DNA of 17,419 nucleotides from Oscillospiraceae bacterium. GTDB taxonomy: Bacteria; Bacillota; Clostridia; Oscillospirales; Ruminococcaceae. The DNA is taken from contig JAITFV010000058.1 of assembly GCA_031281115.1 (NCBI GenBank), forward strand, positions 1 to 17,419. Direction: 5' to 3'. The notes under the pieces are model-generated. The model made no database searches, was not told the origin of the DNA, and saw nothing but the letters and a program-made list of their open reading frames with translations. A program made the position numbers and the translations under genes. Below, one piece after another: positions 1,493 to 16,654 of the stretch; position 1 is the first letter of the stretch; the number at the start of each line of letters is the position of its first letter.

Positions 1493-2095
1493 TTATTCAT
1501 CATGAAACGGCTTTTTATTCGCTGCGATACAGATTTTCGCTAATATTCTTATAATCTCCGGCCGGCGTTCTTTAATGAGCCGGTTTACTTCAGCTTCGTC
1601 TGTGTCGCTCACGACCCGCACATACATCGGCGGCATAGAATCCATCGCGCTGTTAATAATTCCGCGCAGGCACTCGTCGCAGGCGCAGGCATTGAAACGC
1701 TCCACTGCCGTACCGAGCTGTTCTGTTATAAGCAGAAGAGGTACGCTCACAATCTGCCGCTCGGTTGCCGAGCGTGTGAAAACCTTAGGTTCGCTCTCTT
1801 CGGCTGCTTCAGCGGCAATCGCCTTTAAAGCGGGGTTTTCTTCGGCAGGTTCGGAAAGTTTTTCAATTTTCATATGTTTGACGATGGTTTTGCGTCGGTG
1901 CTTGCGGGGCAGCGGGTCAGGGGCTTCGGGAACTTCCGGTTCAAATGCAGGGTTCACCGCTCCCGGAGAATCGCCGGATTCATGCGGCCCGGATTTTTTC
2001 GGCAGAACGCCGCCCGCAGCGTTCCCTGCATTTTCCGGCAAACTTTTCAGATTCAAAAGTTTCAGCACATTCGAGGTTTTGTTATTCCTGGGCAT
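1493..2095 (-). CDS. ComFB-like domain protein with disordered N-terminus, ParA partner candidate
   Basis: A 200-residue protein. Residues 1-110 are low-complexity, rich in Pro, Ala and Glu, with a basic patch (RKHRRK, 64-69). The C-terminal part (about 115-195) resembles the late-competence ComFB domain: Cys137, Cys139 and Cys142 form CxCxxC, followed by a helix and SMPPMYV (153-159), the counterpart of ComFB's C-x-C-x-x-C ... LPPxYV. ComFB proteins are small, can bind a metal through these cysteines, and members in cyanobacteria have been reported as cyclic-di-nucleotide receptors. The ATG follows the ParA stop codon with no gap, so the two are almost certainly co-transcribed and translationally coupled. 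The disordered N-terminus joined to a folded domain recalls ParA partner/adaptor proteins. The domain call is by eye and moderately sure; the partner role is inferred from gene arrangement. Confidence 0.72.
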   Translation of the reverse strand: MPRNNKTSNVLKLLNLKSLPENAGNAAGGVLPKKSGPHESGDSPGAVNPAFEPEVPEAPDPLPRKHRRKTIVKHMKIEKLSEPAEENPALKAIAAEAAEESEPKVFTRSATERQIVSVPLLLITEQLGTAVERFNACACDECLRGIINSAMDSMPPMYVRVVSDTDEAEVNRLIKERRPEIIRILAKICIAANKKPFHDE

Positions 2096-2926
2096 TTAAA
2101 CAACATCCTCCGGACGCGGATACTTGCGTGGTCTGCCGCGCCCTAATTTTTTCTCTACCCGCTTCGGTTTCTCGATACCGAGGATTTCGCAGGTGAGGTC
2201 GCGGAACTCTGCCGCCGATTTGGAGCGGGGCGCGTAGTCTATAATAGTTTTGCCGTGTGCGGGGGCTTCAGCCAAGGTCACGCTTTTAAGTATTTTTGTT
2301 TCAAATACATCAGTGTCAAGCTGCTCCGCAACAAGGCTTGAAAGCTCCTCAACTTCTTTCGTAAGAATAAGCCGCGGGTTATATTGATTAAGCAGAATCC
2401 CGCGCACTTCAAGCGCGTTGTTGAAGTACTTCTTGACGGCGAAAATCGTTTCTTTGAGCTGCGAAAGCCCTTGAAGACTCAATATTTCCGGAATCATCGG
2501 AATTACTAACCAGTTTGCCGCAGTGTAGGCATTGATTGTAAGAATCGAAAGTGCGGGCGGCGTGTCGATAACAATATAATCATAATCGGCAGCTAATTGG
2601 TCAAGCTGGTCTTTGAGGATATGCTCCCTGCCGATTGAGGTAAGCTCAAGTTCCGCGCCTGAGAGCAGAATATTTGAGCAGACAACGTCGCAACTCTCGG
2701 TGTGCCGGATGACGTCATAGAGGTCAACCTCGCCTTTGAATACATTATATATAGTATAGGCGTCCTCGGATTCCGCGCCGAGCGAGAAGCTCAAGTTCCC
2801 CTGCGGGTCTAAGTCTATTGCAAGGACTGATTTGCCCATCGCAGACAGACACCCGCAAATCCCCGCGCAGACTGTCGTTTTCCCGACGCCGCCCTTTTGG
2901 TTTGTTACCGCTATAATCTTTGCCAT
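2096..2926 (-). CDS. ParA/Soj-type ATPase with AT-hook-like C-terminal tail
   Basis: A 276-residue ParA/MinD-superfamily ATPase. The deviant Walker A is KGGVGKTT (11-18), with signature Lys11 and catalytic Lys16; the A' motif DLDPQGN is at 38-44 and Walker B YIVIDTPP at 117-124. The ending SVTLAEAPAHGKTIIDYAPRS is typical of ParA/Soj. Such ATPases dimerise on ATP, bind DNA non-specifically, and move plasmids, chromosome origins, chemoreceptor clusters or other cargo with a partner protein. Unusually, the protein continues past the fold with a basic tail, LGRGRPRKYPRP (261-272), whose RGRP core resembles an AT-hook. The next gene starts directly at its stop codon, the position where a ParA partner is usually encoded. 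There is no ParB or FlhF gene nearby. The start has AGGACGG upstream. Cargo is unknown; roles in flagellar or receptor placement are possibilities only. Confidence 0.92.
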   Translation of the reverse strand: MAKIIAVTNQKGGVGKTTVCAGICGCLSAMGKSVLAIDLDPQGNLSFSLGAESEDAYTIYNVFKGEVDLYDVIRHTESCDVVCSNILLSGAELELTSIGREHILKDQLDQLAADYDYIVIDTPPALSILTINAYTAANWLVIPMIPEILSLQGLSQLKETIFAVKKYFNNALEVRGILLNQYNPRLILTKEVEELSSLVAEQLDTDVFETKILKSVTLAEAPAHGKTIIDYAPRSKSAAEFRDLTCEILGIEKPKRVEKKLGRGRPRKYPRPEDVV

Positions 2927-3023: not shown

Positions 3024-5030
3024 TCATATTGAGTGCATTAATTCCGTCAACACGCTATCCTCGGGATTATAAATATGGAAGTTGCATTTGCCGTTCTTCT
3101 TGACGAAATACATCGCTTCGTCGGCGGCGGCAAGCACGGTTTCGTTATCTCTGCCGTGGTCGGGGGTAATCGCGATTCCGAGGCTCGCCTTAATTTTAAG
3201 CGTTACGTTGTGCTTCTCGGCATGATAACCTTTGTCGAACATCTCAAGCACGGCTGTCGCTAACTTGTCGATATTGTTCAATGTCTGCTCTTCCGTTACG
3301 CACATAACGAACTCGTCACCGCCGAAACGCCCTGCAAAGCCCGCACTCCCGAGTTTGTCTTTAATAATATCCGCGACGGTCTTGATGATTTCGTCGCCGG
3401 TATCGTGACCGTAGGTATCGTTGATGAATTTAAAGTCGTCAACGTCTATGAATATAACGCCGACGCGGCTGGTTGCGCTTCTTGTAATTTCCGATTGCAG
3501 CTCCCGCATGAAAGTATTGCGGTTGAAAAGCCCGGAGAGGAAGTCATAGCTTGCGCGCTCGGACAGCTGCAGGGAGAGCAGCTTTTCGCTGTTGATGTTA
3601 GTAATAACGCCGATTACCCTGAGCAACTCGCCCAAGCGGTCAAGTACGCAGTGCGAGCGCACGGAAATCCATATCATGCTCCCTGTTTTAGTCTCAACCT
3701 GATACTCGCCGTTCATAGAGTCTAAATTCCTGAACAGTTTGTTTATATCAACGCTGTAGCGCTCGGCATCTTCCTTCTCCATCAGCGATTCAATGAATCT
3801 GCCGTTGGTAAGGGTTGCGCGTTCGGTTTCAATCTCGAACATTTCCATAAAGTTATCCGAAACAAACAGCACCTGCTTCTTAAAGTCCCACTCGAAGAGC
3901 ATATTATCGGACAGCTCGGAAATCGTTCTGTGCATTTCTCCGCTGATTAATACCTCATCAAGCATTTCATTGAAGGATTCCGAGATATAGGCATATTCGT
4001 CCGTGCCTTTAACGTCAAGACGCTCGTTCATGTCGCCCTCGTTGATTCTGCGCATCTTTATAACTATGTCGTGCAGAGGGATTGTAACACGGCGTATGGT
4101 TCCGAGCGCGAATAAAACGAACAGAACAGACACGACCGCTACTACACTGACGATTATAATCATAGGCAGCGGGAAGGTGTCAATTTCCGATACAGGGAAA
4201 GTTCCGTACCAGAACCAGCCGTTCTTGATATTATTCTTGTTGCCGTTTATTGTGCCGTATGCGCCGATGTAAGTCGCGGAGTCAATGGTTCCTGAATCCA
4301 CATCGCGTCTGACAGTAGTAATCGTGTTTGATATAAGTTCGTTGAGAGGGGGCGAGTTTGCCTGCCCTTGACGGACTACAGGTGAGTTGTCAATCCAAAG
4401 CGCGGTGCCTTTTCTGTCGGTAACAAAAAAGTTTCCTTCGCCCGCGAATAAGTCTCTGGTTCTGAGGTAATCCTTAAAAATTTCCGTTGAGTAAACCATG
4501 CAGATATAACCGAGGATAACCTCATCCTCATTTATATGGGTTAGAACAAAGAAAGTATTTTCACCGCCGTAGTTGGGGTCGGCTATGGTTATATTGGATA
4601 TCAGCGTTTCGCTTCTGCTGAGTTCTTCCGCTTCGGCAAAGGCGCCGAAATGCGCTCCCGCGTTCTCAAAAGCATCAATGCGAACGGTTCCGTTTACGTC
4701 GATAATTATAACATTAAGCAGATGGGGACTCGCGGCAGTAACACTGTCAAACAAACGAACAACCTCGTCACGGACAGCATTAAAGTTCCCGCCGGCTGTG
4801 AGTTTGATTTCCTCAAACCGTGCAAGCGAATGCAACGATATTGCACACTCATCCACCACAACATCAAGCCCGACCGCTTGCGCGTAGCTCAATGCGTGAA
4901 CCTCGGCTGTAGTGACCTGCGTATGCTGCTGAGCCGCCGCCGAAACACCGGTGAAAACCGCGGCACCCGCCGGAATCAGAATCGTGGCTAACAAAACTAC
5001 GCTCAGCAGCGGTTTTAATCCTATCTTCAT
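3024..5030 (-). CDS. Membrane diguanylate cyclase: extracellular sensor-HAMP-PAS-GGDEF
   Basis: A 668-residue signalling protein. A membrane helix (about 7-28) is followed by an extracytoplasmic region (30-287) resembling a double Cache sensor, a second helix (288-312), a HAMP linker (about 313-365), a PAS domain (about 370-480) and a GGDEF domain (about 490-655). The catalytic motif RFGGDEF (568-574) is intact, and the FIDVDDFKFINDTYGH block (527-542) supplies the expected metal and nucleotide contacts, so it should convert two GTP into cyclic di-GMP. The inhibitory RxxD site normally five residues before GGDEF is absent (GSAG there), suggesting no product inhibition through that site. No EAL domain is present. 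It has a strong Shine-Dalgarno (AAGGGGG) and lies 70 bp after the PilZ gene and 97 bp before ParA, so all may be one operon. The ligand is unknown. Confidence 0.93.
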   Translation of the reverse strand: MKIGLKPLLSVVLLATILIPAGAAVFTGVSAAAQQHTQVTTAEVHALSYAQAVGLDVVVDECAISLHSLARFEEIKLTAGGNFNAVRDEVVRLFDSVTAASPHLLNVIIIDVNGTVRIDAFENAGAHFGAFAEAEELSRSETLISNITIADPNYGGENTFFVLTHINEDEVILGYICMVYSTEIFKDYLRTRDLFAGEGNFFVTDRKGTALWIDNSPVVRQGQANSPPLNELISNTITTVRRDVDSGTIDSATYIGAYGTINGNKNNIKNGWFWYGTFPVSEIDTFPLPMIIIVSVVAVVSVLFVLFALGTIRRVTIPLHDIVIKMRRINEGDMNERLDVKGTDEYAYISESFNEMLDEVLISGEMHRTISELSDNMLFEWDFKKQVLFVSDNFMEMFEIETERATLTNGRFIESLMEKEDAERYSVDINKLFRNLDSMNGEYQVETKTGSMIWISVRSHCVLDRLGELLRVIGVITNINSEKLLSLQLSERASYDFLSGLFNRNTFMRELQSEITRSATSRVGVIFIDVDDFKFINDTYGHDTGDEIIKTVADIIKDKLGSAGFAGRFGGDEFVMCVTEEQTLNNIDKLATAVLEMFDKGYHAEKHNVTLKIKASLGIAITPDHGRDNETVLAAADEAMYFVKKNGKCNFHIYNPEDSVLTELMHSI

Positions 5031-5100: not shown

Positions 5101-5829
5101 CTATACAATATGGCTGACATCTACGATTTCGTCGGCTCCCGCGAGTTCTTCCGCGCGCTTTCTCATTTGAACCTGATTAATATATTTCGCCACCACTTCT
5201 TCCTGCCTTGCGTTCATGAAAAGGAAGCTGCAGCCGTAGCCGATTGCTTTTCCGCTGTCGTTGGTTTTCACCCGTAAGACCTTTGCCACGAACTCCATAC
5301 CCCCGACAACTTCGGTTATTACGAGAGCTGTTACATCGTCTTTTTGCAGTTCAACCATATCGCTCGCCCCGAGAAAAACCCCGCCGATATTAATATCCTG
5401 TATAATGAACGGAATATGCGGGTCTAAGTCAACATACTTTGCTCCGCGCGTTATTGAAGTCAGCATACACGGGATTTCTAATGCGATTTTATAGAAACGG
5501 CGGCGGTCGGGCATTAGTTCGGCTTCCACCTGATTCAGCGTGAGATTAAGCTGCTGCTCGGTTGAAACGGCGATATGCGCCGGCAAACTGAATCTTTCGC
5601 CTGCTCTCGTGTGAGCAATTACAGATACGCTTGCGTTTCGTGCAAAAACAGGCAGATTCTTGCCTTTTATAAGAATCGTTTCATTCGGCTTAAAACGTTC
5701 GTCCTCTTTCACGATACTTTGCGGAAAGGTGAAATTCTTCGTCAAAGTTAAAAGCGCGCGCCCCTTAAAAGTGCAGATTTCTATTTTAATAACCTTGTTT
5801 TTATCAAGGACTTTATCAAGAACAGGCAC
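5101..5829 (-). CDS. PilZ-domain protein, YcgR/YpfB-like
   Basis: A 242-residue protein with the YcgR-like plan: an N-terminal beta-rich domain (about 1-100) then a PilZ domain (about 108-220). The PilZ entry motif is RRRFYK (109-114) and the second motif is DINIGG (145-150). Family consensus is RxxxR and D/NxSxxG, so both are slightly altered: Lys instead of the last Arg and Asn instead of Ser. YcgR and YpfB bind cyclic di-GMP and slow flagella by contacting the motor, so this is a plausible brake given the flagellar operon on the other side of the divergent region; binding here is inferred. The start is GTG (5829-5827), preceded by a G-rich Shine-Dalgarno. A good promoter at 5875-5903 precedes it, making it the first gene of the minus-strand cluster. 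Confidence 0.85.
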   Translation of the reverse strand: MPVLDKVLDKNKVIKIEICTFKGRALLTLTKNFTFPQSIVKEDERFKPNETILIKGKNLPVFARNASVSVIAHTRAGERFSLPAHIAVSTEQQLNLTLNQVEAELMPDRRRFYKIALEIPCMLTSITRGAKYVDLDPHIPFIIQDINIGGVFLGASDMVELQKDDVTALVITEVVGGMEFVAKVLRVKTNDSGKAIGYGCSFLFMNARQEEVVAKYINQVQMRKRAEELAGADEIVDVSHIV

Positions 5830-6864: not shown

Positions 6865-6893
6865 TTGAAAATTACTATATCTTGTGTTATAAT
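6865..6893 (+). promoter_or_regulatory. SigA-type promoter of the flagellar operon
   Basis: TTGAAA (6865-6870), 17 bp, then TATAAT (6888-6893): five of six and six of six matches. The start near 6900 leaves a leader of about 45 bases to the flgB ATG at 6945. No SigD/sigma-28 boxes were seen. As in Bacillus, the early operon would be read by the housekeeping factor. Confidence 0.75.
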
Positions 6894-6944
6894 GTTTTAT
6901 ATGTGCATTTATACGCAATGCCGCGAGAGGGAGGACAAGCTTAT

Positions 6945-7319
6945 ATGTCAGGTTTATTTAATACTACAGCGTTCAGGGTTGTTGAGCAGGGCATAAGCAT
7001 AATGGCTGAGAGCAACCGGATTATTGCCCAGAACATATCCAACAGCGACACGCCCGGCTATAAAGCCAAGTATCTGTATTTTGAGGGGATTCTCCGCGAC
7101 AGGATGAATATGAGAGAAACCGAGAGGTTCAGAAAAGAACTCCACATAGGCACGGCGATGTACATAGACGAGAAAACAAAAGGGCAGCCCGACGGCAATA
7201 ATGTTTGCAATGATACGCAGCAGGCGCTGTTCGCGAAGAATCAAATCCGTTATAATGCGCTGATTAATCAGCTTAACTCAGAGTTTGAATTGTTGCGTAC
7301 AGCAATGCGGCGGAACTAA
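6945..7319 (+). CDS. flgB: Flagellar proximal rod protein FlgB
   Basis: A 124-residue proximal rod component exported by the flagellar type III system and assembled on the MS ring adaptor. The N-terminal rod-protein helix motif is clear: AESNRIIAQNISNSDTPGYKAK, matching the axial-protein signature NIAN-x-x-T-x-GYK. The C-terminal helix (FAKNQIRYNALINQLNSEFELLRTAM) is also typical of FlgB. I chose the ATG at 6945, which has a strong Shine-Dalgarno (GAGGGAGGA) about 9 bases upstream; an in-frame TTG at 6882 would lie inside the promoter -10 region. FlgB heads the fla/che operon in Bacillus and here too it is the first gene after the promoter. Confidence 0.95.
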   Translation: MSGLFNTTAFRVVEQGISIMAESNRIIAQNISNSDTPGYKAKYLYFEGILRDRMNMRETERFRKELHIGTAMYIDEKTKGQPDGNNVCNDTQQALFAKNQIRYNALINQLNSEFELLRTAMRRN

Positions 7320-7336
7320 AGCAGAACATCTGCTTT
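7318..7336 (+). repeat. Hairpin at the flgB stop codon
   Basis: AAAGCAGA (7318-7325) pairs with TCTGCTTT (7329-7336) around a 3-base loop, starting within the flgB TAA codon. No strong U-tract follows, so it is more likely an mRNA stability or partial attenuation element than a terminator. Confidence 0.5.
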
Positions 7337-7363
7337 CAATAATCGGTGCAATGAGGTGAAATT

Positions 7364-7849
7364 ATGGCTTTTTTATCATATCTTGACATATCTGTTTCGG
7401 CGATGGCGGCGCAAAGGCTTCGCATTGAAGTAATCGGGCATAACGTTGCGAACGCCTCGAACACCCGCACCGCCGGCGGCGAAGCATACAGGCGGCAGGT
7501 TGTTGTGTTCGGGGAGAACAGACCTTTCGCGAACTTACAGCCCGGCAAAAACTACGTCAGAAACCCGAATTTCAGTAATATGCTTGAAATGACGATGGCG
7601 CAGCGGCGTCAAAGGCAGATGGCGGGCGTACAGGTGATGAGAATTGCGGAAGACCCGACGCCTTTAACGCCGGTGTTCGACCCTGCGCACCCGCACGCGA
7701 ACGAGGAAGGTTATTACTTTATGCCGAACGTGGACCTCGCCACCGAGCAGATGGACGCGATGGCGGCGACCCGCTCTTATGAAGCAAATCTGACAATATT
7801 CGACGAACTGAAAAACATGGCGACAAGAGCCCTGACGATAGGCAGATAA
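7364..7849 (+). CDS. flgC: Flagellar proximal rod protein FlgC
   Basis: A 161-residue rod protein. The N-terminal axial motif SVSAMAAQRLRIEVIGHNVANASNTRT and C-terminal helix VDLATEQMDAMAATRSYEANLTIFDELKNMATRAL are classic FlgC: both ends form the coiled-coil that packs the rod. It is a little longer than the usual 130-150 residues because of the middle segment. ATG at 7364 follows AGGTG with good spacing. FlgB and FlgC together form the proximal rod on FliE, encoded next. Confidence 0.96.
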   Translation: MAFLSYLDISVSAMAAQRLRIEVIGHNVANASNTRTAGGEAYRRQVVVFGENRPFANLQPGKNYVRNPNFSNMLEMTMAQRRQRQMAGVQVMRIAEDPTPLTPVFDPAHPHANEEGYYFMPNVDLATEQMDAMAATRSYEANLTIFDELKNMATRALTIGR

Positions 7850-7888
7850 TAATTACTAATTAGTAATTAGTAATTATTAATGTACAAT
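7847..7888. repeat. Heptameric AT-rich repeat array between flgC and fliE
   Basis: Starting at the flgC stop codon, six 7-bp units run in register and each ends in AAT: TAATAAT, TACTAAT, TAGTAAT, TAGTAAT, TATTAAT, GTACAAT. The same 7-bp period and AAT ending occur in the array at 9916-9971. Confidence 0.6.
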
Positions 7889-7916
7889 GTTGGTGAAGAA
7901 AGGACTAAATGAAAAT

Positions 7917-8222
7917 ATGATTAATCAGATTCAAACGATTCAGCCGCTCGGAACCGTACTCGGCAGCCAAAATACACAAGCCGCCGATGTAAGCATTAAT
8001 GCGCCGAATTTCCTTGACGTGTTCAAGAGCATAGTCGGCGGCGCGGCAGATACCCATGCGCAGAAGTCGCAGGATATGCTCGACCTCATGCTCGGCAATG
8101 TTGATGACCTTGAGCGGATTTCAGCTAATCAAACCAAGGCGCAGGTTGCCCTTGAATTATTGGTTAATACGAGAAACGTCACGCTTGAAGCATACAACGA
8201 AATAATTAAAATGTCGATTTAA
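7917..8222 (+). CDS. fliE: Flagellar hook-basal body adaptor FliE
   Basis: A 101-residue protein that joins the MS ring to the rod and is needed early for export through the flagellar type III gate. The C-terminal helix (TKAQVALELLVNTRNVTLEAYNEIIKMSI) carries the FliE signature ending in AYxEIxxM. The start at 7917 (MINQIQTI) has AAAGGA about 12 bases upstream and gives the normal family length; an in-frame ATG at 7887 sits in the repeat array and lacks a Shine-Dalgarno. The order flgB-flgC-fliE is conserved across Bacillota. Confidence 0.93.
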   Translation: MINQIQTIQPLGTVLGSQNTQAADVSINAPNFLDVFKSIVGGAADTHAQKSQDMLDLMLGNVDDLERISANQTKAQVALELLVNTRNVTLEAYNEIIKMSI

Positions 8223-8264
8223 GTTGAATCATATTTGTACATTGTATGAAAGGTTGTATACATA

Positions 8265-9914
8265 ATGGACAAGGCAAGAGCAGGGCTTAAAAAGTTCGGC
8301 GTCACCGTTAAGGAAAAATGGAGCGGGGCGAATAAAAACACGCGCATAATTACGCTGGCTGTGGCTGCATCTATGATTGCGGCTTTGATTGTGCTGATTG
8401 CGCTTTCGGGTCGCGCCGATTTTGAAGTGCTTTACGCCGGCGTTTCCGCAGAGGAAATCAGCGAGATTACATCTGCGCTCAGCACCCTGGGCATACAGGC
8501 GAGAATAGACGGCTCGACCGTGAGCGTACCGAGAGATACGGTTGACAGTGCGCGTATGCAGCTTGCGATTCAAGGCTTCCCGAAATCTACATACAACTAT
8601 AATATATGGAACGAGGGCGTGGGAATGTTCTCGACCGACGCCGAAAGACAGGAAATACAAAGGCAGCAGTTAGAGCAGAACATCAGAGCGACACTGCGGA
8701 GCCTGACCCCTATTCAGGACGCGCTCGTAACCGTGCATCCGGCAGAACAAAGACCTTATGTTATGTCTGTGGACAGGCTGCCCGCAAGAGCGAGCGTAAT
8801 GCTTACGATTCATCAGGGTGTGCGGCTCAACTCGGCGCAAATTGAGGGTATATACCATTTAGTGCAGATGTCTGTACCTGAGCTTAGGAGGGAAAATCTG
8901 ACCGTTGCAAACCAGGACGGCATAACGCTCATTGCAGACGATGCAAACAATGCGGAAGCGAATCTCGCGCTCGAAATGCAGAGAATGAATATGCAGTTCG
9001 AGTTTCAGAGAACGATGGAAAACAGACTCCGCTCTTCGGTGGAAGACCTGCTCGCCGGCACTGTGAGAGATTTCCGCGTTGCTGTAAATGTAAGGCTTAA
9101 CTTCAGCGAATGGGAAAGCCAGTCCCGCGAATATGAGGGCGCGAACATTGATGAAATCGGCTTTCAGCACGGCATTGTGGATTTTGAGGAGCGATTGGTC
9201 GCGTGGAACGCCATAGATGCGGAGGGCGGCTTGGTGGGTATGACGGTTGACGCTGATATTTCGCCCGGTTCTCCTACGTGGGTCGGCGGCGAAGGCAGTG
9301 AGGCATATTTTGAACGCTCGGAAAGAACACAATACTTGGTAAATCAATACGATACATTTGCACGTTCCAACGGCTTTGACATTGATATGATAAACGTAGC
9401 TGTGCAAATTGACGAGGGCGCGCTTACGCAGGACCAAATCGATGAATACAGAATGCTGCTTGCGAACACGGTCGGCACGGAAATGGCTTATGTAAGCGTA
9501 AGACCGACAAACTTCCTGCTTGAAGCGCCGTTACAAATTACCGGACCTCCGCAGGGTTCGCCGGTCAGAAATATGCTTATATTCATCATCATCTCGCTTG
9601 GTGCGCTGTTAATCATACTCTTCATGCTCGCGATTATGTCGAGCGGCTCTAAGAAGAGGAGGCTCATCCGCGCTAAGGCGACCGCTTATCAGGGAGCGGG
9701 CGCAACGCCGGCTTTCGATGATATAGGCATGGGTTACAATACCTTTGAAGCGCCGCAGGACGAAGAACGCGAGGAAATCAAGCTTCAGTCGCTCCTCGGC
9801 GAAGGCGAAGGACAAACAAGAGATGCGCTGCTCAAGAATGAAATCCGTGAATTCGCTAAAACTAATCCCGATATAGTTGCACAGTTAATCAGAACGTGGA
9901 TACGCGAAGGGTGA
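8265..9914 (+). CDS. fliF: Flagellar MS-ring protein FliF
   Basis: A 549-residue ring-forming membrane protein, the first structure of the basal body, which houses the export gate. It shows a membrane helix at about 27-48, the YscJ/FliF ring-building domains (from about 50; note the FEVLYAGVSAEEISEI start and RASVMLTIHQGVRLNSAQIEGI), a long middle beta-collar region, a second helix at about 437-459 and a cytoplasmic tail. The final 25 residues (REFAKTNPDIVAQLIRTWI) are the conserved FliG-binding segment. Length is as expected. The ATG at 8265 follows AAAGG by about 11 bases. fliG follows 87 bp later, with a repeat array in between. Confidence 0.97.
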   Translation: MDKARAGLKKFGVTVKEKWSGANKNTRIITLAVAASMIAALIVLIALSGRADFEVLYAGVSAEEISEITSALSTLGIQARIDGSTVSVPRDTVDSARMQLAIQGFPKSTYNYNIWNEGVGMFSTDAERQEIQRQQLEQNIRATLRSLTPIQDALVTVHPAEQRPYVMSVDRLPARASVMLTIHQGVRLNSAQIEGIYHLVQMSVPELRRENLTVANQDGITLIADDANNAEANLALEMQRMNMQFEFQRTMENRLRSSVEDLLAGTVRDFRVAVNVRLNFSEWESQSREYEGANIDEIGFQHGIVDFEERLVAWNAIDAEGGLVGMTVDADISPGSPTWVGGEGSEAYFERSERTQYLVNQYDTFARSNGFDIDMINVAVQIDEGALTQDQIDEYRMLLANTVGTEMAYVSVRPTNFLLEAPLQITGPPQGSPVRNMLIFIIISLGALLIILFMLAIMSSGSKKRRLIRAKATAYQGAGATPAFDDIGMGYNTFEAPQDEEREEIKLQSLLGEGEGQTRDALLKNEIREFAKTNPDIVAQLIRTWIREG

Positions 9915-9915
9915 C

Positions 9916-9971
9916 GGACAATTAACAATGGACAATTGACAATGGACAATTGACAATTGACAATGGACAAT
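9916..9971. repeat. Eight-unit heptameric tandem repeat between fliF and fliG
   Basis: Eight contiguous 7-bp units each end in ACAAT: GGACAAT, TAACAAT, GGACAAT, TGACAAT, GGACAAT, TGACAAT, TGACAAT, GGACAAT. It starts 2 bp after the fliF stop and ends about 15 bp before the fliG Shine-Dalgarno. The units are short imperfect palindromes in pairs (CAATTG). Such arrays change length easily by slippage, which would alter the spacing but no coding frame. Confidence 0.85.
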
Positions 9972-10001
9972 TAGATAGAATTATTAGGGGGTGTGTGAAT
10001 T

Positions 10002-11018
10002 ATGCCTGCTGCTGAGGGCGGAACTATTACCAATATGCAAAAAGCGTCTCTCGTGCTGTCTTCAATCGGCACAGAAAACGCCTCTTTGGTGTTCAAAAAT
10101 TTTTCGGACGACGAAATAGAAAAGCTGACACTTGAAGTCGCGAAGAACGATTACTGGCCTATGGAAATCGTGGAGGAAGTGCTTAACGACTTCTATGAAC
10201 TCTGCCTGACGCAGAAATTTATATCCGAGGGCGGCGTTGACTATGCGCGCGAAATACAAGAAAAAGCTTTCGGGCAGCAGCAGGCGGCGGCGCTGTTTGA
10301 AAAGATTACCAAGCAGCTTAAAACAAAGGCGTTCAGTTTTGTGCGGAAAGCTGACTATAAGAACCTGCTCGCAATCGTGCAGAACGAGCACCCGCAGACA
10401 ATCGCGCTTATTCTGTCTTACGCGAGAAGCGACCAGGCTTCGGCGATTTTGTCGGAGCTTCCGAAAGACGTGAGAATAGAAGTAGTTGAGAGAATCGCGA
10501 AGATGGACTCTGCCTCTCCCGATGTCGTGCGTTCAATTGAAGCGACGCTGGAGAAGAAGTTCGCAAATCTTATTTCTGCGGAAAGCATGGACGTGGGCGG
10601 CATTAACTACATTGCGGATGTTCTGAACTCTGTAGACAGAGGAACAGAAAAACAAATCTTCGACGAACTCGCCCAGCGCGACCCGAAGCTCGCAGACGAA
10701 ATCAGGCAGAAGATGTTCGTGTTCGAGGATATAATGATGCTCGACGATATATCAGTTCAGGCGTTCCTCAAGGAAGTCGACCCGAAAGACCTTGCAGTCG
10801 CGATTAAAGGCTCAACCTCGGAAGTTGCCGATTCCATATACCGCAATATGTCCCAGCGCGCAAGAGAGAGCTTGCAGACAGACGTCGAATATCTGCATAA
10901 TGTCCGTCTCCGCGACGTGGAAGAGTCACAGCAGCGCATAGTTGCCGTTATAAGGCGGCTTGAGGAAGACGGCGTCTTAACGATTTCCAAGGGCGGAGCA
11001 GACGAAATTATTTCATAA
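10002..11018 (+). CDS. fliG: Flagellar motor switch protein FliG
   Basis: A 338-residue rotor protein that binds FliF through its N-terminal domain, FliM through the middle, and the stator MotA through the charged C-terminal domain. The middle-domain motif EHPQ is at 129-132 (NEHPQTIALILSYA). The C-terminal region has the expected charged helix (RNMSQRARESLQTDVEYL and RLRDVEESQQRIVAVIRRLEEDG), which carries the torque residues. Length is exactly that of the family. ATG 10002 follows AGGGGGTG by 8 bases. Confidence 0.97.
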   Translation: MPAAEGGTITNMQKASLVLSSIGTENASLVFKNFSDDEIEKLTLEVAKNDYWPMEIVEEVLNDFYELCLTQKFISEGGVDYAREIQEKAFGQQQAAALFEKITKQLKTKAFSFVRKADYKNLLAIVQNEHPQTIALILSYARSDQASAILSELPKDVRIEVVERIAKMDSASPDVVRSIEATLEKKFANLISAESMDVGGINYIADVLNSVDRGTEKQIFDELAQRDPKLADEIRQKMFVFEDIMMLDDISVQAFLKEVDPKDLAVAIKGSTSEVADSIYRNMSQRARESLQTDVEYLHNVRLRDVEESQQRIVAVIRRLEEDGVLTISKGGADEIIS

Positions 11019-11057
11019 CTCCGTAATTATTAATTGATATAAAATGGTGGTTTTTGA

Positions 11058-12035
11058 ATGTTTCAGCAAAGCAGTAAGTTTGTATTTATTCCCGGGCATA
11101 AGGCAGAAAATCCTAATCCTGCCGCCGGGAATATCGTCATGCGCCGGGTCGAGGGGATGAATACAGGGGAGGAATTCGCGGCAAGACCCATACTGAGACC
11201 GGGCATTAAACCCGGCGGGAATGCGGGGCGTAACGCCCTCGGCGCGCCGGAATCACCTCCGGAAGAAATTCAAGAACCTGAAGTCCCTCTAAACGCGCAG
11301 GAGCAGCTTCTTTTACGCAAGGAAATCATCACGCAGTATGATGCGCTCCGTCAGCAGTATATTGCAGAGGGTGAGAAAGCAAAGTTTGACGCGCAGGAAT
11401 GGGCGCAGAGATTAGTCGAAACCACTGAAAACGACATTCGGAACCTCTATAATAAAAACGAGCAGGATTGCGCAGTGAAGCGCAAAGATTCTGAAGAGCA
11501 GGGCTACAAAGACGGTTACGAAAAAGGTTTTTCCGAAGGCAGCGAAAAAGGCTACGAAGAGGGCTACAGCAAAGCGCACGGCAAATGCGAGGGAACCTTA
11601 AAAGAGCTGCTTGGTATATTGGAACAAATAGACATCGAACGCGAGAGGTATTTTAAAGAATACGAGAACCGCCTTTTTGATACTATATTTACTATAGCGA
11701 ATAAAATCACCGTTGACAGCCTTAAACAAAAAGACAAGACAGTGATTACCAAAATGCTTCGTGAAGCCGCGAAAGTCTTCCGTAACTCCGAGTATGTGAA
11801 AGTTACGCTGTCAAAGCTTGATACCGAGCAGTGCGGGACGGCGGGGCTTGACACCATGCGGGAAATCTTCCGCGAAGCTCAGCACATAGAGTTTGAAATA
11901 GTCAAAGATGCGCCTGAGGGTACGCTGATTCTCGACAACGGCAGCGAAATAACCGACGCGGGCGTCGCGACGCAGCTGATGATGATTGAAAAATTAGGCA
12001 AAGGCAAGTTTAGGGATAAGGCGGAGGAAGAGTAG
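11058..12035 (+). CDS. fliH: Flagellar export regulator FliH
   Basis: A 325-residue stator-like subunit that dimerises, binds the export ATPase FliI and docks it at the C-ring. A Pro/Gly-rich N-terminal region (about 1-75) leads into a long helix with a glycine zipper: GYKDGYEKGFSEGSEKGYEEGYSK, where Gly149, 153, 157, 161, 165 and 169 repeat every four residues. GxxxG runs with aromatic residues next to glycine are a FliH hallmark. The C-terminal FliH/HrpE domain (from about 190) ends in the conserved TLILDNGSEITDAGVATQLMMIEK. It is longer than the roughly 210-250 residues of many FliH proteins, through the N-terminus. Shine-Dalgarno GGTGG precedes the ATG. Confidence 0.92.
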   Translation: MFQQSSKFVFIPGHKAENPNPAAGNIVMRRVEGMNTGEEFAARPILRPGIKPGGNAGRNALGAPESPPEEIQEPEVPLNAQEQLLLRKEIITQYDALRQQYIAEGEKAKFDAQEWAQRLVETTENDIRNLYNKNEQDCAVKRKDSEEQGYKDGYEKGFSEGSEKGYEEGYSKAHGKCEGTLKELLGILEQIDIERERYFKEYENRLFDTIFTIANKITVDSLKQKDKTVITKMLREAAKVFRNSEYVKVTLSKLDTEQCGTAGLDTMREIFREAQHIEFEIVKDAPEGTLILDNGSEITDAGVATQLMMIEKLGKGKFRDKAEEE

Positions 12036-12047
12036 GAGGAAAATGAT

Positions 12048-12242
12048 ATGGCAAGCGGCACAGAAATCAGAACAGCGCAAAAAGAAAAATTGTTTGATTT
12101 ATTAAAACTTAAAAAAGTTTTGGAAAAAAATAATGCCTCAATCAACCTTGATGCGTTGAGTGAATTAATAATCAGAACCAAAGCTTCTATGGAAGCGGAA
12201 GACGTAGCTTATGTCGAAAAAATGATAGCAGAGCTGAAATAA
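12048..12242 (+). CDS. Small coupled gene of unknown function between fliH and fliI
   Basis: A 64-residue protein I cannot assign. It is charged, apparently all-helical (KEKLFDLLKLKKVLEKNN, LDALSELIIRTKASM, AEDVAYVEKMIAELK) with no membrane segment. A strong Shine-Dalgarno AGGAGG (12034-12039) overlaps the fliH stop and is 8 bases from the ATG at 12048. Its TAA stop shares its last A with the ATG of fliI, so translation should be coupled. Bacillus has no gene at this position. Being locked between the two export-ATPase genes suggests a role with FliH/FliI, perhaps a small chaperone or cofactor; that is inference. Confidence 0.8.
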   Translation: MASGTEIRTAQKEKLFDLLKLKKVLEKNNASINLDALSELIIRTKASMEAEDVAYVEKMIAELK

Positions 12243-13546
12243 TGGATTTAAACAGCTTTAACAAAGAACTTAAAACTTACGATTCTTACCGCAATATGGG
12301 TAAGATTGAAAAAATAATCGGAATGACGATTGAGGCGAGCGGCCCGATTTGCAACATCGGTGATGTTTGCCGCATTTTCAGCAAGGATATGCACAGCCAT
12401 GTTTTCGCGGAAGTCGTGGGCTTTAATTCCGAGAACGTACTGCTCATGCCTTATACCGACATCGAGGGAATAGGTCCGGGCAGCATTGTTGATAATACCG
12501 GCGAGAAACTGATGGTGAAAACCGGCGAAAGTCTAATCGGGCGCATTATTGATGCAATCGGTACGCCTATTGACGGCGGCGGCGAAGTCGAATACACGGG
12601 TGTAATGCCGATTTCGGGGATTCCCGTAAATCCGCTGACCCGCCCGAAAATAGCGGAGCCTATTGAACTCGGCATAAAAGCAATCGACGGTGTCATGACG
12701 CTCGGAAAAGGGCAGAGAATCGGTATTTTTGCGGGTTCCGGCGTGGGGAAATCCACATTGATGGGCATGGTAGCGAGAAAAGTCAAAGCCGACCTGAACG
12801 TAATCGCGCTCGTGGGAGAGCGTGGGCGTGAGGTGCGTGAATTTATAGAAAACGACCTCGGCGACGAGGGAATGGCGCGCTCTGTGGTTGTAGTCGCGAC
12901 GGGCGACCAGCCTGCAATGATGCGCAATAAATGCCCGCTGACTGCGACCGCGATTGCTGAATATTTCATGCGGCAGGGCAAAGATGTACTTTTGATGATG
13001 GACAACCTGACACGTTTCGCTATGGCGCAGCGTGAAGTCGGGCTGTCTATAGGTGAGCCGCCGATTGCGAGGGGATACACGCCGTCGATTTATTCCGCGC
13101 TGCCGAAGCTTTTGGAGCGTGCGGGCTGCTTCGAGAAAGGCAGTATCACGGGAATTTATGCGGTTTTGGTTGAAGGCGACGATACCAACGAGCCGATAGC
13201 CGACACTGTGCGCGGAATTATAGACGGGCATATAGTTTTATCGCGGAAAATAGCGGCAAGGAACCATTATCCCGCTATTGATATATTAAACAGCGTTTCA
13301 AGGCTTATGGTGCTTGTCACGCCGCAGGCACATCAGGACTTGGCGAACAGGCTTCGTAATCTGCTCGCGCTTTATGAAGCGAACGCAGACCTTATTGCAA
13401 TCGGTGCATATAAAGCGGGGACAAACCCCGCGCTTGACGAAGCAATCAGCAAAATAAATGCAATCAACGGCTTCCTCACTCAAAGAATCAAGGAATCGTT
13501 TGATTTAGATGAAACTGTTAAATTGTTGGAGCAGGTGGTCATGTAG
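12242..13546 (+). CDS. fliI: Flagellum-specific export ATPase FliI
   Basis: A 434-residue F1-beta-like hexameric ATPase that powers, with the proton gradient, unfolding and export of flagellar parts. Walker A is GIFAGSGVGKST (161-172, Lys170) and the Walker B aspartate is Asp254 in VLLMMDNLTRFAMAQREV. The sequence GLSIGEPPIARGYTPSIYSALPKLLERAG is diagnostic of the FliI/SctN family. Length is normal. Its start overlaps the stop of the 64-codon gene (TAATG), and fliJ begins 6 bp after its TAG. The context (fliH before, fliJ after) is the usual export module. Confidence 0.98.
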   Translation: MDLNSFNKELKTYDSYRNMGKIEKIIGMTIEASGPICNIGDVCRIFSKDMHSHVFAEVVGFNSENVLLMPYTDIEGIGPGSIVDNTGEKLMVKTGESLIGRIIDAIGTPIDGGGEVEYTGVMPISGIPVNPLTRPKIAEPIELGIKAIDGVMTLGKGQRIGIFAGSGVGKSTLMGMVARKVKADLNVIALVGERGREVREFIENDLGDEGMARSVVVVATGDQPAMMRNKCPLTATAIAEYFMRQGKDVLLMMDNLTRFAMAQREVGLSIGEPPIARGYTPSIYSALPKLLERAGCFEKGSITGIYAVLVEGDDTNEPIADTVRGIIDGHIVLSRKIAARNHYPAIDILNSVSRLMVLVTPQAHQDLANRLRNLLALYEANADLIAIGAYKAGTNPALDEAISKINAINGFLTQRIKESFDLDETVKLLEQVVM

Positions 13547-13552
13547 GGTGCG

Positions 13553-14002
13553 ATGAAAAAATTTGAGTTTTCTTTAGCGAAATTAAAAACCTACAAAGAG
13601 CGTATGCTTGAAGCCGAAAAAAACAATCTCGGGATTCTGCGGCGCGAGCTTGTCATCTTACAGGGGCAGCTGCAGGATATTCTCGACAACATAAAAGATA
13701 AGAACGCAGAACTCGCCGAAAAGATGGTGAAAGGCATTACGCCGGTAGACATAGCGGTACGGAAAAGGTTTATTACTTCGCGCAAGCAGGATGCGTCTTT
13801 AAAGCAAATCGAAATCGTCCGGAAAGAAGACGAAATCGTGCGACAACTTGAGGTCGTGTTAGAATTACAAAAAGAAGTCGCCTCGTTAGAGAAGTTAGAG
13901 GAAGGTCAGCTTGAGGAGTACCGCGCATTAGAACTCAAGGAAACCGAGTTGTTTATTGATGAATTTATGACTAACGCAGACTTTAGGAAGCAAAAAAGCT
14001 AA
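13553..14002 (+). CDS. fliJ: Flagellar export chaperone FliJ
   Basis: A 149-residue protein predicted to be a long antiparallel coiled coil: heptad-like hydrophobics run through 25-60 and 95-135 with charged residues between. It starts with the typical FKF-like MKKFEFSLAKLKTYKERM and has the IRKRFI/AVRKRF turn segment mid-protein. FliJ inserts in the FliI ring like F1-gamma and carries empty chaperones. Position directly after fliI, and size, fit. Shine-Dalgarno lies inside the fliI end (GGAG/GGGTG). Sequence is poorly conserved in this family, so the call rests on context and shape. Confidence 0.88.
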   Translation: MKKFEFSLAKLKTYKERMLEAEKNNLGILRRELVILQGQLQDILDNIKDKNAELAEKMVKGITPVDIAVRKRFITSRKQDASLKQIEIVRKEDEIVRQLEVVLELQKEVASLEKLEEGQLEEYRALELKETELFIDEFMTNADFRKQKS

Positions 14003-14005
14003 AAT

Positions 14006-14015
14006 TTCGACAAAA
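14006..14015 (-). promoter_or_regulatory. Possible Spo0A (0A) box upstream of the fliK promoter
   Basis: TTCGACAAAA is the exact reverse complement of the 0A box TTTTGTCGAA. A second, 9-of-10 match (TTTTGTCAAT on the minus strand, 14058-14049) covers the -35 box 43 bp later. The region is AT-rich and one decamer can occur by chance, and no Spo0A gene is in view. Confidence 0.3.
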
Positions 14016-14049
14016 TTTATATAAAATTTGTAAAAATTGCGAGTAATTA

Positions 14050-14078
14050 TTGACAAAAGGGCATTTTTTGTGTATAAT
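14050..14078 (+). promoter_or_regulatory. Perfect-consensus promoter upstream of fliK
   Basis: TTGACA (14050-14055), exactly 17 bp, TATAAT (14073-14078). It lies in the 192-bp gap between fliJ and fliK and would give fliK, flgD and flgE transcription independent of the flgB promoter. A start near 14085 falls just before a short leader ORF. Confidence 0.8.
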
Positions 14079-14097
14079 CGGAAGAAGGTGGGTAAAC

Positions 14098-14127
14098 ATG
14101 CACCATTTTTGCTATTTTTGTTTTTAA
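14098..14127 (+). CDS. Putative 9-residue leader peptide ahead of fliK
   Basis: ATG-started mini-ORF encoding MHHFCYFCF then TAA, preceded by AAGGTGG with 6-base spacing. It is rich in His, Cys and aromatic residues. It is followed by a small hairpin (14135-14159). Because the expected transcript begins near 14085, the Shine-Dalgarno would lie at the very 5' end of the promoter-derived mRNA, though read-through transcripts from fliJ would include it fully. The form recalls leader-peptide attenuation; no known case with this peptide comes to mind. Confidence 0.35.
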   Translation: MHHFCYFCF

Positions 14128-14134
14128 TTTATGT

Positions 14135-14159
14135 TATTAAGTCTTAAAATGGCTTAATA
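14135..14159 (+). repeat. Small hairpin between leader ORF and fliK
   Basis: TATTAAG (14135-14141) pairs with CTTAATA (14153-14159) over an 11-base loop. It is AU-rich and weak. It lies 8 bases after the stop codon of the leader ORF and 20 bases before the strong fliK Shine-Dalgarno AGGAGG (14180-14186). Confidence 0.35.
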
Positions 14160-14194
14160 TATATTAAATTTCATGCAGGAAGGAGGTGTATGAA

Positions 14195-15850
14195 ATGATG
14201 GTGAGCATAAACATTACCCCGCAAGGTATTCCGCAAGCCCCGCAATGCGCAGGATTCGGTGAAATTTCGGAAGCATACGGTGAAGAAGGCTTCGGAGAAT
14301 GTGTTAAACTGGCGATTACGGAGTTAGGACGGCAGGAAACAGGCTGTGCGCCAAAAATGTTTTATGAAAAAGGTACAGTAACGGAAGCCCCCGAATTTAT
14401 TCCGAAGCCGAAACAGAAGCAAGATTGCGGCGAAGAAGAGCAAATCCTCGCAAGCTGTTTACTCAGCATGGCGATACCGGCAGTAATTGACGAAAAACCG
14501 AAAATTGCCGAACTTGAAACTGTGGTAAAGCCGCAAGCGCATACCGCCCCCCCCGAATTACCGGAGATGTCTGCAGAACGCGATGTAAACAGCGCACCGC
14601 AGCCCCCCGGGAACACAGAAATTCCCGGACAGGCAGGACCCGAAACCCCGGAACCCGTAAAATCTGAAACAGCGCAGGTTTCCGAAACGCCGGAAATAGC
14701 GGGGGCAAAAGCGCCCGAACCCGCAACACCGGAACCTGTTAAGTCCGAAACAGCGCAAGTTACGGCAGAAGAAACGCTTCGGTTCGCTGATTCGTCAGAG
14801 CCAAAAGTATTCGCAGCGGAAAGCGGAGAAGCAATTGCTGAAAACCCGGAAGCGGTTCACCCGCAGGGCTATGTACAGCCGGAAACTTATAAAGCTTCCG
14901 AAACCGCGCAAATACTTACTGCCGAATTCCACGGAACAGCAAAGCAAACGCAGCTCCCGAAAGCGGAAGCGCAGCATGTAAGGAGCGGGATTATTTACAG
15001 CGAAAAGCCCGCAGAAACAGCCGAAATACCGAAGCATACTGTTACGCAGATTCCGCAGGAAGCAAAAGAGTTCCTTGAAAAGTTCGGCGAAGTCAAGTTT
15101 GCGGCAGAAAACGGAAAGAGCGCGGAAATAACGGCAGAACCGGTAAAGCCCGAAGAAACCTTGAAAGTATGGGAAACAATACAAAAGGCACATGTTGAAA
15201 TCAAGGAAAAGCCGGAAGAGCTTAACGAGCTGCTCGAAAAGTTTAAGGCGCAGAATCACGGGAAAACAGAGAAACTTGAAAAAACGGAAAAACCCGCAGA
15301 AATGCCTAAAACCCAAGAAACAGCGAAAACTTCCGAAACAACGAAAATTCACGATATACCGAAAACTCCCGAAACTCTGCAAATTTCTGCAACAACTCAC
15401 TTTGAGCCGAAATCTGTAATCCCCGAAAAAGCCGACTTGCCGCAGCTGCCGAAAAGCACAATTACACAGGTCAGTGAGCAGATTTTAGCGAAGATGGCAA
15501 CCGCAAAAAACGGCACGACTGCCTTCGAGATGATTTTAAATCCCGCCGAGCTCGGTAAAATCTCGGTAAAAATTGTGGTTCAGGCGACAGGAACGGCGGT
15601 CGAAATTACCGCAGAAAAGGCAGCCACTGCGCAGCTTCTGCAAAATTCAGCCGATAAAATCGGTTTCGCGCTTGAAAGAAGTGATGCAAAACTCGAAAGT
15701 TTTGTTGTAAACGTTGAAACCAAGCAGGATTACAGCGAGCAACGCGAAAATCGGAACGATAACCGCGGCGAACAGCAGCAGCAAGATTCTGATGAAGCAG
15801 GCGAAGAAGAACAGGGCATCAGTTTCGCGGAGCTGTTACAGGCAGGTTAA
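14195..15850 (+). CDS. fliK: Flagellar hook-length control protein FliK
   Basis: A 551-residue secreted ruler that measures hook length and switches export specificity. The C-terminal hook-length domain (about 434-515) is recognisable: FEMILNPAELGKISVKIVV, then VEITAEKAATAQLLQNSADKIGFALE and LESFVVNVE, as in PF02120. Residues 110-430 are low-complexity, rich in Glu, Lys, Thr, Pro and Ala, as expected of an extended ruler. PEPVKSETAQV occurs twice, 27 codons apart (14648-14680 and 14729-14761), showing internal duplication. A Gln/Asp/Glu-rich tail ends the protein. I chose the ATG at 14195, 8 bases after AGGAGG; an in-frame GTG at 14186 overlaps that site. The gene sits between fliJ and flgD as in Bacillus, but without the ylxF gene in between. 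Confidence 0.92.
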   Translation: MMVSINITPQGIPQAPQCAGFGEISEAYGEEGFGECVKLAITELGRQETGCAPKMFYEKGTVTEAPEFIPKPKQKQDCGEEEQILASCLLSMAIPAVIDEKPKIAELETVVKPQAHTAPPELPEMSAERDVNSAPQPPGNTEIPGQAGPETPEPVKSETAQVSETPEIAGAKAPEPATPEPVKSETAQVTAEETLRFADSSEPKVFAAESGEAIAENPEAVHPQGYVQPETYKASETAQILTAEFHGTAKQTQLPKAEAQHVRSGIIYSEKPAETAEIPKHTVTQIPQEAKEFLEKFGEVKFAAENGKSAEITAEPVKPEETLKVWETIQKAHVEIKEKPEELNELLEKFKAQNHGKTEKLEKTEKPAEMPKTQETAKTSETTKIHDIPKTPETLQISATTHFEPKSVIPEKADLPQLPKSTITQVSEQILAKMATAKNGTTAFEMILNPAELGKISVKIVVQATGTAVEITAEKAATAQLLQNSADKIGFALERSDAKLESFVVNVETKQDYSEQRENRNDNRGEQQQQDSDEAGEEEQGISFAELLQAG

Positions 15851-15874
15851 TTCTTCTTGAAAGGAGGAACGCAC

Positions 15875-16639
15875 ATGAGCGTAAACAGCACACAAAGCAT
15901 TGCCGAGAACAGAGAACGGTTTGCACGATATTTCACGAATCAGGATAAAGACGCATTTTCGATGGAGAACTTTTTTAATCTGCTGATGGCGGAGATGGCG
16001 AACCAGGACCCGCTTGAACCGATGAGTAACACGGATTTTATCGGAAACTTAGCGAACTTCACGGCATTGAAAGCACAGCAGGACGCGCTCTACTATCAAA
16101 ACGCGAATTACGCGCAGTCGTTAGTGGGCAAGACCGTAACAGTACCGGTAACGGACGGCTCGGGTCTAAGGTTTGCAAGCGGAATAGTTACATCAATGCA
16201 GGTAACGGACGGCGAGTTCAGCGTTAAGGTCAATGGCAAGAATCACCCGCTCTCAAGCATAATGGAAATTCTGCCGACCCAAAACCCCTACACGATTAAC
16301 GGAAACGAAGGCGCATACGCGGCCGCGCTCATCGGCATGAAAGTAACGGTAGTCGGAACCAGCGATACAGGTTTAAGAATTACCGAAACAGGTATCGTCC
16401 GGCGTTTTGAGGTCAGGGACAACGAAATCAGTATAATCATCGGCGACTTATCCTACCCGCTTTCAAGCGTACTCAGGGTTGAAGCACCGGACGCGGCAGA
16501 CCCCGGCGATGACGACAACTGGGAAGGCGGAGGTTCCGCAGATGCACCGCCCGCACCGCCGTCGGCAGGAGAACCCGACTCCGACTTAGTGGCAGAACTT
16601 GAGAATTACACGGAGGGATTAGGTCAGCTAATTTATTAG
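15875..16639 (+). CDS. flgD: Flagellar hook assembly (cap) protein FlgD, with duplicated domain
   Basis: A 254-residue hook-cap protein that folds FlgE subunits at the growing tip. The N-terminal signature NLLMAEMANQDPLEPMSNTDFIGNLANFTALKAQ (35-68) is diagnostic. After it come two similar blocks of about 52 residues: 81-132 (SLVGKTVTV ... GIVTSMQV ... PLSSIMEI) and 150-202 (ALIGMKVTV ... GIVRRFEV ... PLSSVLRV). Related FlgD proteins usually have one such Tudor-like segment, so this looks like an internal duplication. The C-terminus has an acidic, Pro/Gly-rich linker (205-238) and a short conserved-looking end, ENYTEGLGQLIY. ATG 15875 follows AAGGAGG by 7 bases. Confidence 0.94.
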   Translation: MSVNSTQSIAENRERFARYFTNQDKDAFSMENFFNLLMAEMANQDPLEPMSNTDFIGNLANFTALKAQQDALYYQNANYAQSLVGKTVTVPVTDGSGLRFASGIVTSMQVTDGEFSVKVNGKNHPLSSIMEILPTQNPYTINGNEGAYAAALIGMKVTVVGTSDTGLRITETGIVRRFEVRDNEISIIIGDLSYPLSSVLRVEAPDAADPGDDDNWEGGGSADAPPAPPSAGEPDSDLVAELENYTEGLGQLIY

Positions 16640-16654
16640 AAAGGAGTGGCAAGG

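Follow-up and report, generated by a model that had tools for sequence, protein, structure and literature searches.

The closest described counterparts of the gene pair analysed here are ATPases of the ParA/MinD superfamily and the proteins that act with them. FlhG, which works with FlhF, is likewise a P-loop ATPase of this superfamily encoded with flagellar genes; it is of the MinD type and carries a C-terminal membrane-targeting helix. In the McdA/McdB, PomZ/PomX and ParA/ParB systems, which serve carboxysomes, division and DNA, respectively, the ParA is found beside a partner whose N-terminus is a short basic peptide; McdB, PomX and ParB further possess a flexible stretch and a separate domain for cargo or for dimerisation. 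Known ParA/MinD partners are reported to activate the ATPase through such a short N-terminal peptide, in which a positively charged residue is essential (accessible parts of PMC13170346 and PMC10241942). ParC/ParP and PpfA/TlpT are examples of ParA-type positioning within a motility gene set, with a partner that is CheW-like or a chemoreceptor. A separate group of proteins includes ComFB of B. subtilis and CdgR of cyanobacteria. According to the accessible text of PMC4381287, B. subtilis ComFB binds zinc, the fourth ligand being Cys or His, and has N4, E7, D33, N40 and Y46 at its dimer interface. Furthermore, a cyanobacterial ComFB has been reported to bind both c-di-AMP and c-di-GMP (PMC12313861, in part), and CdgR to act through the transcription factor DevH (PMC13075795, in part).

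The DNA studied here (the window, 17,419 nucleotides) is an entire contig of a 2.18 Mb assembly that is 87 % complete. On its minus strand, genes for a PilZ-domain protein, a GGDEF protein, a ParA-type ATPase and a 200-aa protein follow one another in this order, and they are divergent from plus-strand flgB-flgC-fliE-fliF-fliG and further flagellar genes. The features are as follows.

5101..5829, minus strand: PilZ-domain gene, upstream of ParA (Pfam PilZ, 31.6 bits, over the cut-off)
3024..5030, minus strand: diguanylate cyclase gene (HAMP-PAS-GGDEF), upstream of ParA (Pfam, over the cut-off)
2096..2926, minus strand: ParA-type ATPase gene, 276 aa, with the deviant Walker A KGGVGKTT (Pfam AAA_31, 178.4 bits)
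2099..2152, minus strand: basic C-terminal tail of ParA with GRGRPRK, which we take to be AT-hook-like (sequence comparison)
1493..2095, minus strand: gene of the ComFB-domain partner, 200 aa, its ATG abutting the ParA stop (ORF; profile comparison)
2054..2080, minus strand: N-terminal motif KTSNVLKLL of the partner, codons 6-14, proposed ParA-contact peptide (alignment conservation)
1766..2053, minus strand: variable linker of the partner, codons 15-110 (length and sequence free to vary in alignments)
1496..1765, minus strand: ComFB-like domain of the partner, codons 111-200 (hhalign range; Pfam ComFB at 123-187, 17 bits, below the cut-off)
1670..1687, minus strand: CxCxxC (C137, C139, C142), three of four likely Zn ligands (alignment)
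1502..1504, minus strand: H198, candidate fourth Zn ligand (alignment)
6882..17068, plus strand: divergent flagellar cluster starting flgB-flgC-fliE-fliF-fliG (Pfam, FliG_C and gene order)

In the flagellar cluster, flgC and the last ORF are named by Pfam, fliG by FliG_C, and the rest by gene order and appearance. A preliminary description of this DNA had placed the start of the 200-aa ORF directly behind the ParA stop and had assigned GGDEF and PilZ genes to the same cluster. Indeed, the stop TAA (2098-2096) abuts the ATG (2095-2093), and each of the two other genes scores over its own Pfam cut-off; the order PilZ-GGDEF-ParA recurs in three other loci (L035, L050 and L059). Three further features of the window were noticed in passing: a 238-aa ORF (6080-6796, plus strand) just before flgB, which has no confident Pfam family and has relatives close to the pair in several genomes; an AT-rich inverted repeat at 1405-1462, with 23-nt arms that are 96 % complementary and a 12-nt loop, between the ComFB-like gene and an AI-2E transporter gene; and a sigma-70-like promoter matching at 12/12 positions (1406-1378, minus strand), which overlaps the edge of the repeat and is directed at the transporter gene.

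The ATPase matches Pfam AAA_31 far above the cut-off of 27 bits, and its Walker A positions K11-T17 (KGGxGKT) are conserved in at least 90 % of 33 aligned rows, while no ParA-type model of NCBIfam is matched over its cut-off. The closest solved chains are a ParA family protein (8ray) and Soj (6iub/1wcv), by which the window ParA is of the ParA/Soj type rather than of the MinD type to which FlhG belongs. At the positions that we take to be the DNA-binding residues of Soj, one Arg position is Lys or Arg in 25 of 27 and in 22 of 26 ParAs, two others near the EAPSH motif are lost, and other basic positions occur nearby. Where FlhG has its membrane-targeting helix, the window ParA ends in the basic tail; GRGRPRK occurs also in the same-genus ParA L059 and is absent from L006.

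The partner resembles McdB, PomX and ParB in its build, and differs from them in having a ComFB domain at its C-terminus. Its N-terminal half is of low complexity and partly basic, as the preliminary description had it. The same description had compared the C-terminal domain with ComFB, a comparison for which the single sequence gives little: it scores 17 bits against Pfam ComFB (PF10719), below the curated cut-off of 25, phmmer with it alone found no ComFB in the PDB, and NCBIfam has no family for it. Comparison of profiles bears the assignment out. hhalign of the window clade against canonical ComFBs gives a probability of 99.0 % (E 9.2e-18, 89 columns), and a profile of 33 homologues matches 4wai_A, a chain of B. 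subtilis ComFB (E 1.5e-8), and, weakly, the c-di-GMP receptor chain 8hja_A (E 0.023); 27 of the 33 homologues match ComFB at E 0.01 or better (best 2.7e-20). Like ComFB and CdgR, most of these proteins have CxCxxC and a late His or Cys: C137, C139 and C142 are invariant and H198 nearly invariant in the 33-row alignment, and the set is present in the window protein and in 15 of the 17 members of its clade. The cysteines are gone in the two others, L059 and L206, so that this clade shows a ComFB domain in decay. A canonical ComFB of 109 aa (L001) is encoded elsewhere in the window's own assembly.

The preliminary description further proposed that the ParA is encoded next to the protein it acts with, an arrangement that should then recur in relatives. 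A search with the partner protein gave matches in 37 of 148 family genomes, and in all 29 homologous loci of other genomes examined first, a ParA lies upstream on the same strand (in one, L026, a contig end cuts it down to 67 aa); here as below, genome and locus counts refer to related genomes and not to independent events. In a wider set, 35 of 40 loci hold the pair, L059 included, and the others are four canonical ComFBs (L064, L065, L066 and L069) and the contig-end locus L068. A profile of 33 partners (A1; L045, L059 and L060 are absent from it and from A2, with L045 included in A3) detected a ComFB in 10 of the 15 flagellated genomes missed by the single-sequence search, with ParA upstream in 8 of these 10. 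At the level of the phylum, A1 finds matches at E 1e-5 in 218 of 398 genomes, most of them short canonical ComFBs. When 30 of these phylum loci were examined, ParA was upstream in the window, L218 and L244, and not in the 27 canonical loci; in these loci of other families of the phylum, no ParA was present within ~1.5 kb (for L234, within 341 bases upstream). Chance adjacency is ruled out by the comparison of 29/29 paired loci with 0/27 canonical ones. Of the best 80 loci that the ParA alignment retrieved from named genomes, the top seven (L110-L116) have a ComFB-like ORF directly downstream, and in the remaining 73 no such ORF is detected at E 1e-3; the seven belong to Intestinimonas, two unclassified Bacillota/Firmicutes, Oscillibacter, two Lachnospiraceae and an Erysipelotrichaceae record. 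Altogether, 53 of the 91 distinct ComFB-domain ORFs collected have a paired-type ParA directly upstream. The ParA and the ComFB-domain protein are thus a conserved module, and they are very likely functional partners, as judged from this conservation.

What distinguishes the paired ComFB proteins from the canonical ones, besides the ParA gene, is the start of the protein. Two types of N-terminal motif were found, the SKT type of the window, (S/T/N)KTxx(V/I)(L/M)x(L/I)(L/M), and the IDK type, IDK(E/D)xM(F/Y)xKIMP, each followed by a variable linker and then the ComFB domain; in one IDK-type partner of 606 aa (L060:1901-3718) the linker is repetitive and rich in Lys, Ala and Ser. All 53 ParA-paired ComFB ORFs have a motif, 51 by pattern and two (L111 and L059) by eye, and 37 of the 38 ComFB ORFs without ParA have none, counts that describe the data, since the patterns were written after the data had been seen. 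The exception is the contig-end locus L026, whose start, 'NKLDKESMFNRLMP', is of the IDK type by eye. K6 and T7 are invariant in 15 rows of the window clade. The window partner thus shows a sequence feature of activating partners, an N-terminal peptide with a conserved Lys, and since known partners activate ParA/MinD ATPases through such peptides, we propose that the motif is a ParA-contact peptide. In a tree of 98 ParAs (a short search with 53 paired ones and 45 others, namely every second of L117-L189 plus 8), the 53 paired sequences share one branch (SH-aLRT 100) with two unpaired ParAs on long branches, L074 and L117, which are placed beside the IDK group. The motif types (27 SKT, 26 IDK) require one change each on this tree, with a support of 92 for the SKT branch and of only 38 for the IDK split.

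L074 comes from the window's own genome (contig C247; L074:1489-2545) and is a mobile-element-like ParA with a 101-aa partner and an adjoining phage-type integrase. One end of the partner is ribbon-helix-helix-like and its N-terminus resembles the IDK motif, and the partners of L249 and L250 are alike by eye, the L250 partner having only a sub-cut-off match to a Pfam ribbon-helix-helix family; the ParAs of these mobile elements are related to the paired ones, but the C-terminal part of their partners is not ComFB. That such ParAs are among its nearest relatives would fit an ordinary partition ParA, of the chromosome or a mobile element, with an incidental neighbour. The genome, however, has its own Soj beside Spo0J (L073), by which partition of plasmid or chromosome as the main role was rejected, and the pair recurs stably in many genera and is linked to flagella; we regard this reading as extremely improbable. 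The ParA superfamily of the genome comprises, besides the window ParA, this Soj and the mobile-element ParA, three weaker ATPases. Homology between the partner tails and those of the mobile-element partners looked good by eye, and the tests were weak: an HMM search gave no match at E 10, and L074, L249 and L250 ranked 128, 22 and 117 among 8199 ORFs, with L117 at 1159. An origin in which one docking tail was kept while cargo domains were exchanged is a lead that these sequences may offer.

The distribution of the module follows that of flagella. FliG_C was found in 52 of the 148 family genomes, including all 37 genomes of the first partner search, and the pair is present in 45 of the 52 FliG-positive genomes (36 complete ones from the first search, a truncated one in G016, and 8 from the profile search), versus 1 of the 96 FliG-negative ones (Fisher p 2.7e-29, uncorrected for kinship). 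The single FliG-negative genome with a pair, G047, is an assembly of 73 % completeness in which flgM-flgN adjoin the pair. No pair was detected in 7 of the 52 FliG-positive genomes, so the pair is not essential for having flagella; in two of them (G023 and G053) there is a ComFB without ParA, and in five (G062, G064, G068, G087 and G093) the ComFB profile has no match. Any ComFB profile match occurs in 48 of the 148 genomes, 47 with FliG and G047. It may be noted separately that canonical ComFB is likewise confined to FliG genomes in this 148-genome sample, G047 apart.

The flanking sequences were inspected for 53 pairs (the window excluded and L278 included), and 40 of them have a gene for flagella or chemotaxis there, the names of representatives being checked with Pfam; what is labelled FlhB in L043, L116 and L288 is a short C-terminal FlhB-like ORF, and for L288 this is the sole label. 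Loci of the window-like clade are flanked by flgB-flgC-fliE-fliF, those of the IDK clade usually by a divergent flgM-flgN-flgK-flgL-DUF6470-fliW-csrA block, and those of more distant taxa by fliD, fliS, cheC, cheD or flgF/flgG. An assignment of the sister-clade neighbours as greA-lysS-dusB proved wrong, since Pfam identifies them as flgM, flgN, FlgK, flagellin-type FlgL, DUF6470, FliW and CsrA. As a side observation, flgL and fliW are regularly separated by DUF6470 in IDK loci (L039:13378-13998, and the same place elsewhere). The 13 pairs without a flagellar label in their flanks are L033, L037, L040, L042, L045, L049, L050, L056, L058, L061, L063, L280 and L284; six of them (L033, L037, L042, L050, L056 and L061) have PilZ within 2.2 kb. 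By co-distribution, the ParA-ComFB module goes with flagella rather than with carboxysomes, division or DNA.

These neighbourhoods also bear on what the pair may do for the flagellum. It might position chemosensory arrays, as ParC/ParP or PpfA/TlpT do, since cheC, cheD, cheW or an MCP gene is near L041, L111, L112, L113, L115, L285 and L198; the commonest neighbours, however, are flgM-flgN-flgK-flgL or flgB-flgC-fliE and not che genes, and the partner has neither a CheW-like nor a receptor domain, which makes this quite unlikely. Alternatively, the pair might regulate flagellar expression or assembly without positioning, in the manner of FleN or of DevH/CdgR. The linkage to flgM, fliW and csrA, the PilZ/GGDEF neighbours and the reported action of CdgR through DevH (PMC13075795, in part) would all agree with such a role, but a Soj-type ParA with an activating-type N-terminal peptide on its partner fits a cycling ParA, and we consider pure regulation unlikely.

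The placement of flagella by the usual proteins seems to be missing where the pair occurs. Among the matches listed (37 candidates), none in the 52 flagellated genomes is over the cut-off of the FlhF model TIGR03499, the best score (88.2 of 174.15 bits) coming from positions where FtsY and SRP54 would match too, and 2 of 14 control genomes have an FlhF over the cut-off. FlhG was assessed by gene order after flhA and not by a model of its own: in 9 of 9 flagellar loci (G132, G114, G124, G051, G113, G136, G140, L112 and L115), flhA is followed directly by fliA and then by flgF and flgG, and these loci contain no ParA-like ORF besides the ComFB-paired ones, so that, unlike FlhG, the ParA of the pair does not follow flhA. 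Of four relatives, with the ATPases of G114 typed in part, G132 and G002 encode a MinD-like ATPase, under the MinD cut-off, outside the flagellar genes, and none is evident in G136. A paper on the motility loci of Roseburia and Eubacterium has no FlhF, FlhG or ComF in its main text, as far as this is accessible (PMC3720852). With FlhG judged by gene order, the pair thus seemingly occurs where the usual flagellum-placing proteins are missing.

The preliminary description had gone further and suggested that the partner of the window senses c-di-GMP, a claim that the residues of its ComFB domain leave unsupported. In 37 canonical ComFBs, the hallmarks corresponding to the dimer interface are present almost throughout (NxxE in 36, Asp at +8 in 34, Asn at +15 in 35 and Tyr at +21 in 35). 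The IDK-type partners of the sister clade largely keep them (n=27; NxxE 27, Asp 21, Asn 27, Tyr 27), and the other SKT partners do so in part (n=10; NxxE 8, Asp 10, Asn 4, Tyr 10). In the window clade they are mostly lost (n=15, the cysteine-less L059 and L206 being left out; NxxE 3, Asp 2, Asn 3, Tyr 6), and the Tyr is the sole one kept in the window protein; canonical ComFB and CdgR, on the other hand, lack both the ParA neighbour (0/27) and the N-terminal motif. We infer that nucleotide binding has probably been lost in the window clade, whereas the retained hallmarks make cyclic-dinucleotide control possible in the sister clade. The window domain could itself be a c-di-GMP receptor gating ParA, considering that ComFB/CdgR proteins are reported to bind c-di-GMP and c-di-AMP (PMC12313861 and PMC13075795, in part), that GGDEF and PilZ genes stand in the cluster, and that GGDEF genes are present in 37 of the 37 pair genomes found first. 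Against this, the clade is mostly without the hallmark residues, and PilZ and/or GGDEF adjoins ParA in 14 of its 16 other loci (the exceptions being L054 and L283), so that these neighbours could carry the input; we hold a receptor of this kind to be very unlikely, and c-di-GMP input in the window clade may enter through PilZ/GGDEF instead.

Taking these results together, we favour, with modest confidence, the reading that the pair is a ParA positioning module which has two components and belongs to the flagellar regulon, acting on a flagellar cargo and standing in for FlhF/FlhG. Judging from the family, ParA-ATP dimers would bind the nucleoid, and the Lys motif of the partner would dock on the ParA dimer and stimulate ATP hydrolysis, like the peptides of ParB, McdB and PomX. 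A long flexible linker would join this motif to the zinc-bound ComFB domain, which would dimerise and hold a flagellum-linked cargo; a role of the partner as a cargo adaptor can fairly be inferred. By repeated binding and release along gradients of ParA, the module would then set where flagella stand or how many there are, or do the same for a complex of the basal body, of export or of chemotaxis. In the sister clade, the intact ComFB domain may gate the cycle with a cyclic dinucleotide, an input that in the window clade may have been taken over by the adjoining PilZ and GGDEF genes. A more far-reaching scenario would be that a plasmid-type ParA was recruited to the flagellar regulon of Clostridia when its activating tail received a ComFB domain, and that, in bacteria without FlhF/FlhG, cyclic dinucleotides decide the place or number of flagella, acting directly where ComFB is intact and through PilZ/GGDEF in the clade of the window; as a joint claim this is tentative, and we think it rather doubtful.

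The link to flagella, the conserved N-terminal motif and the absence of FlhF are new beyond the preliminary description. In the open-access literature we found no description of a ParA-ComFB flagellar system, the only match for ComFB, ParA and flagella dealing with competence in B. subtilis, and the accessible parts of papers on FlhF/FlhG or ParA with flagella in Lachnospiraceae and Firmicutes contain no such system. A preprint reportedly treats ComFB as a widespread receptor family and may discuss its neighbours. With the two genes in hand, flagellum placement in motile Clostridia without FlhF/FlhG becomes directly testable. The module would give a class of 'orphan' ParAs a partner protein, a kind of cargo and a short motif for docking, and N-terminally tailed ComFB domains a job other than competence; it would also show how one ParA core can be re-used through a swap of the cargo domain of its partner.
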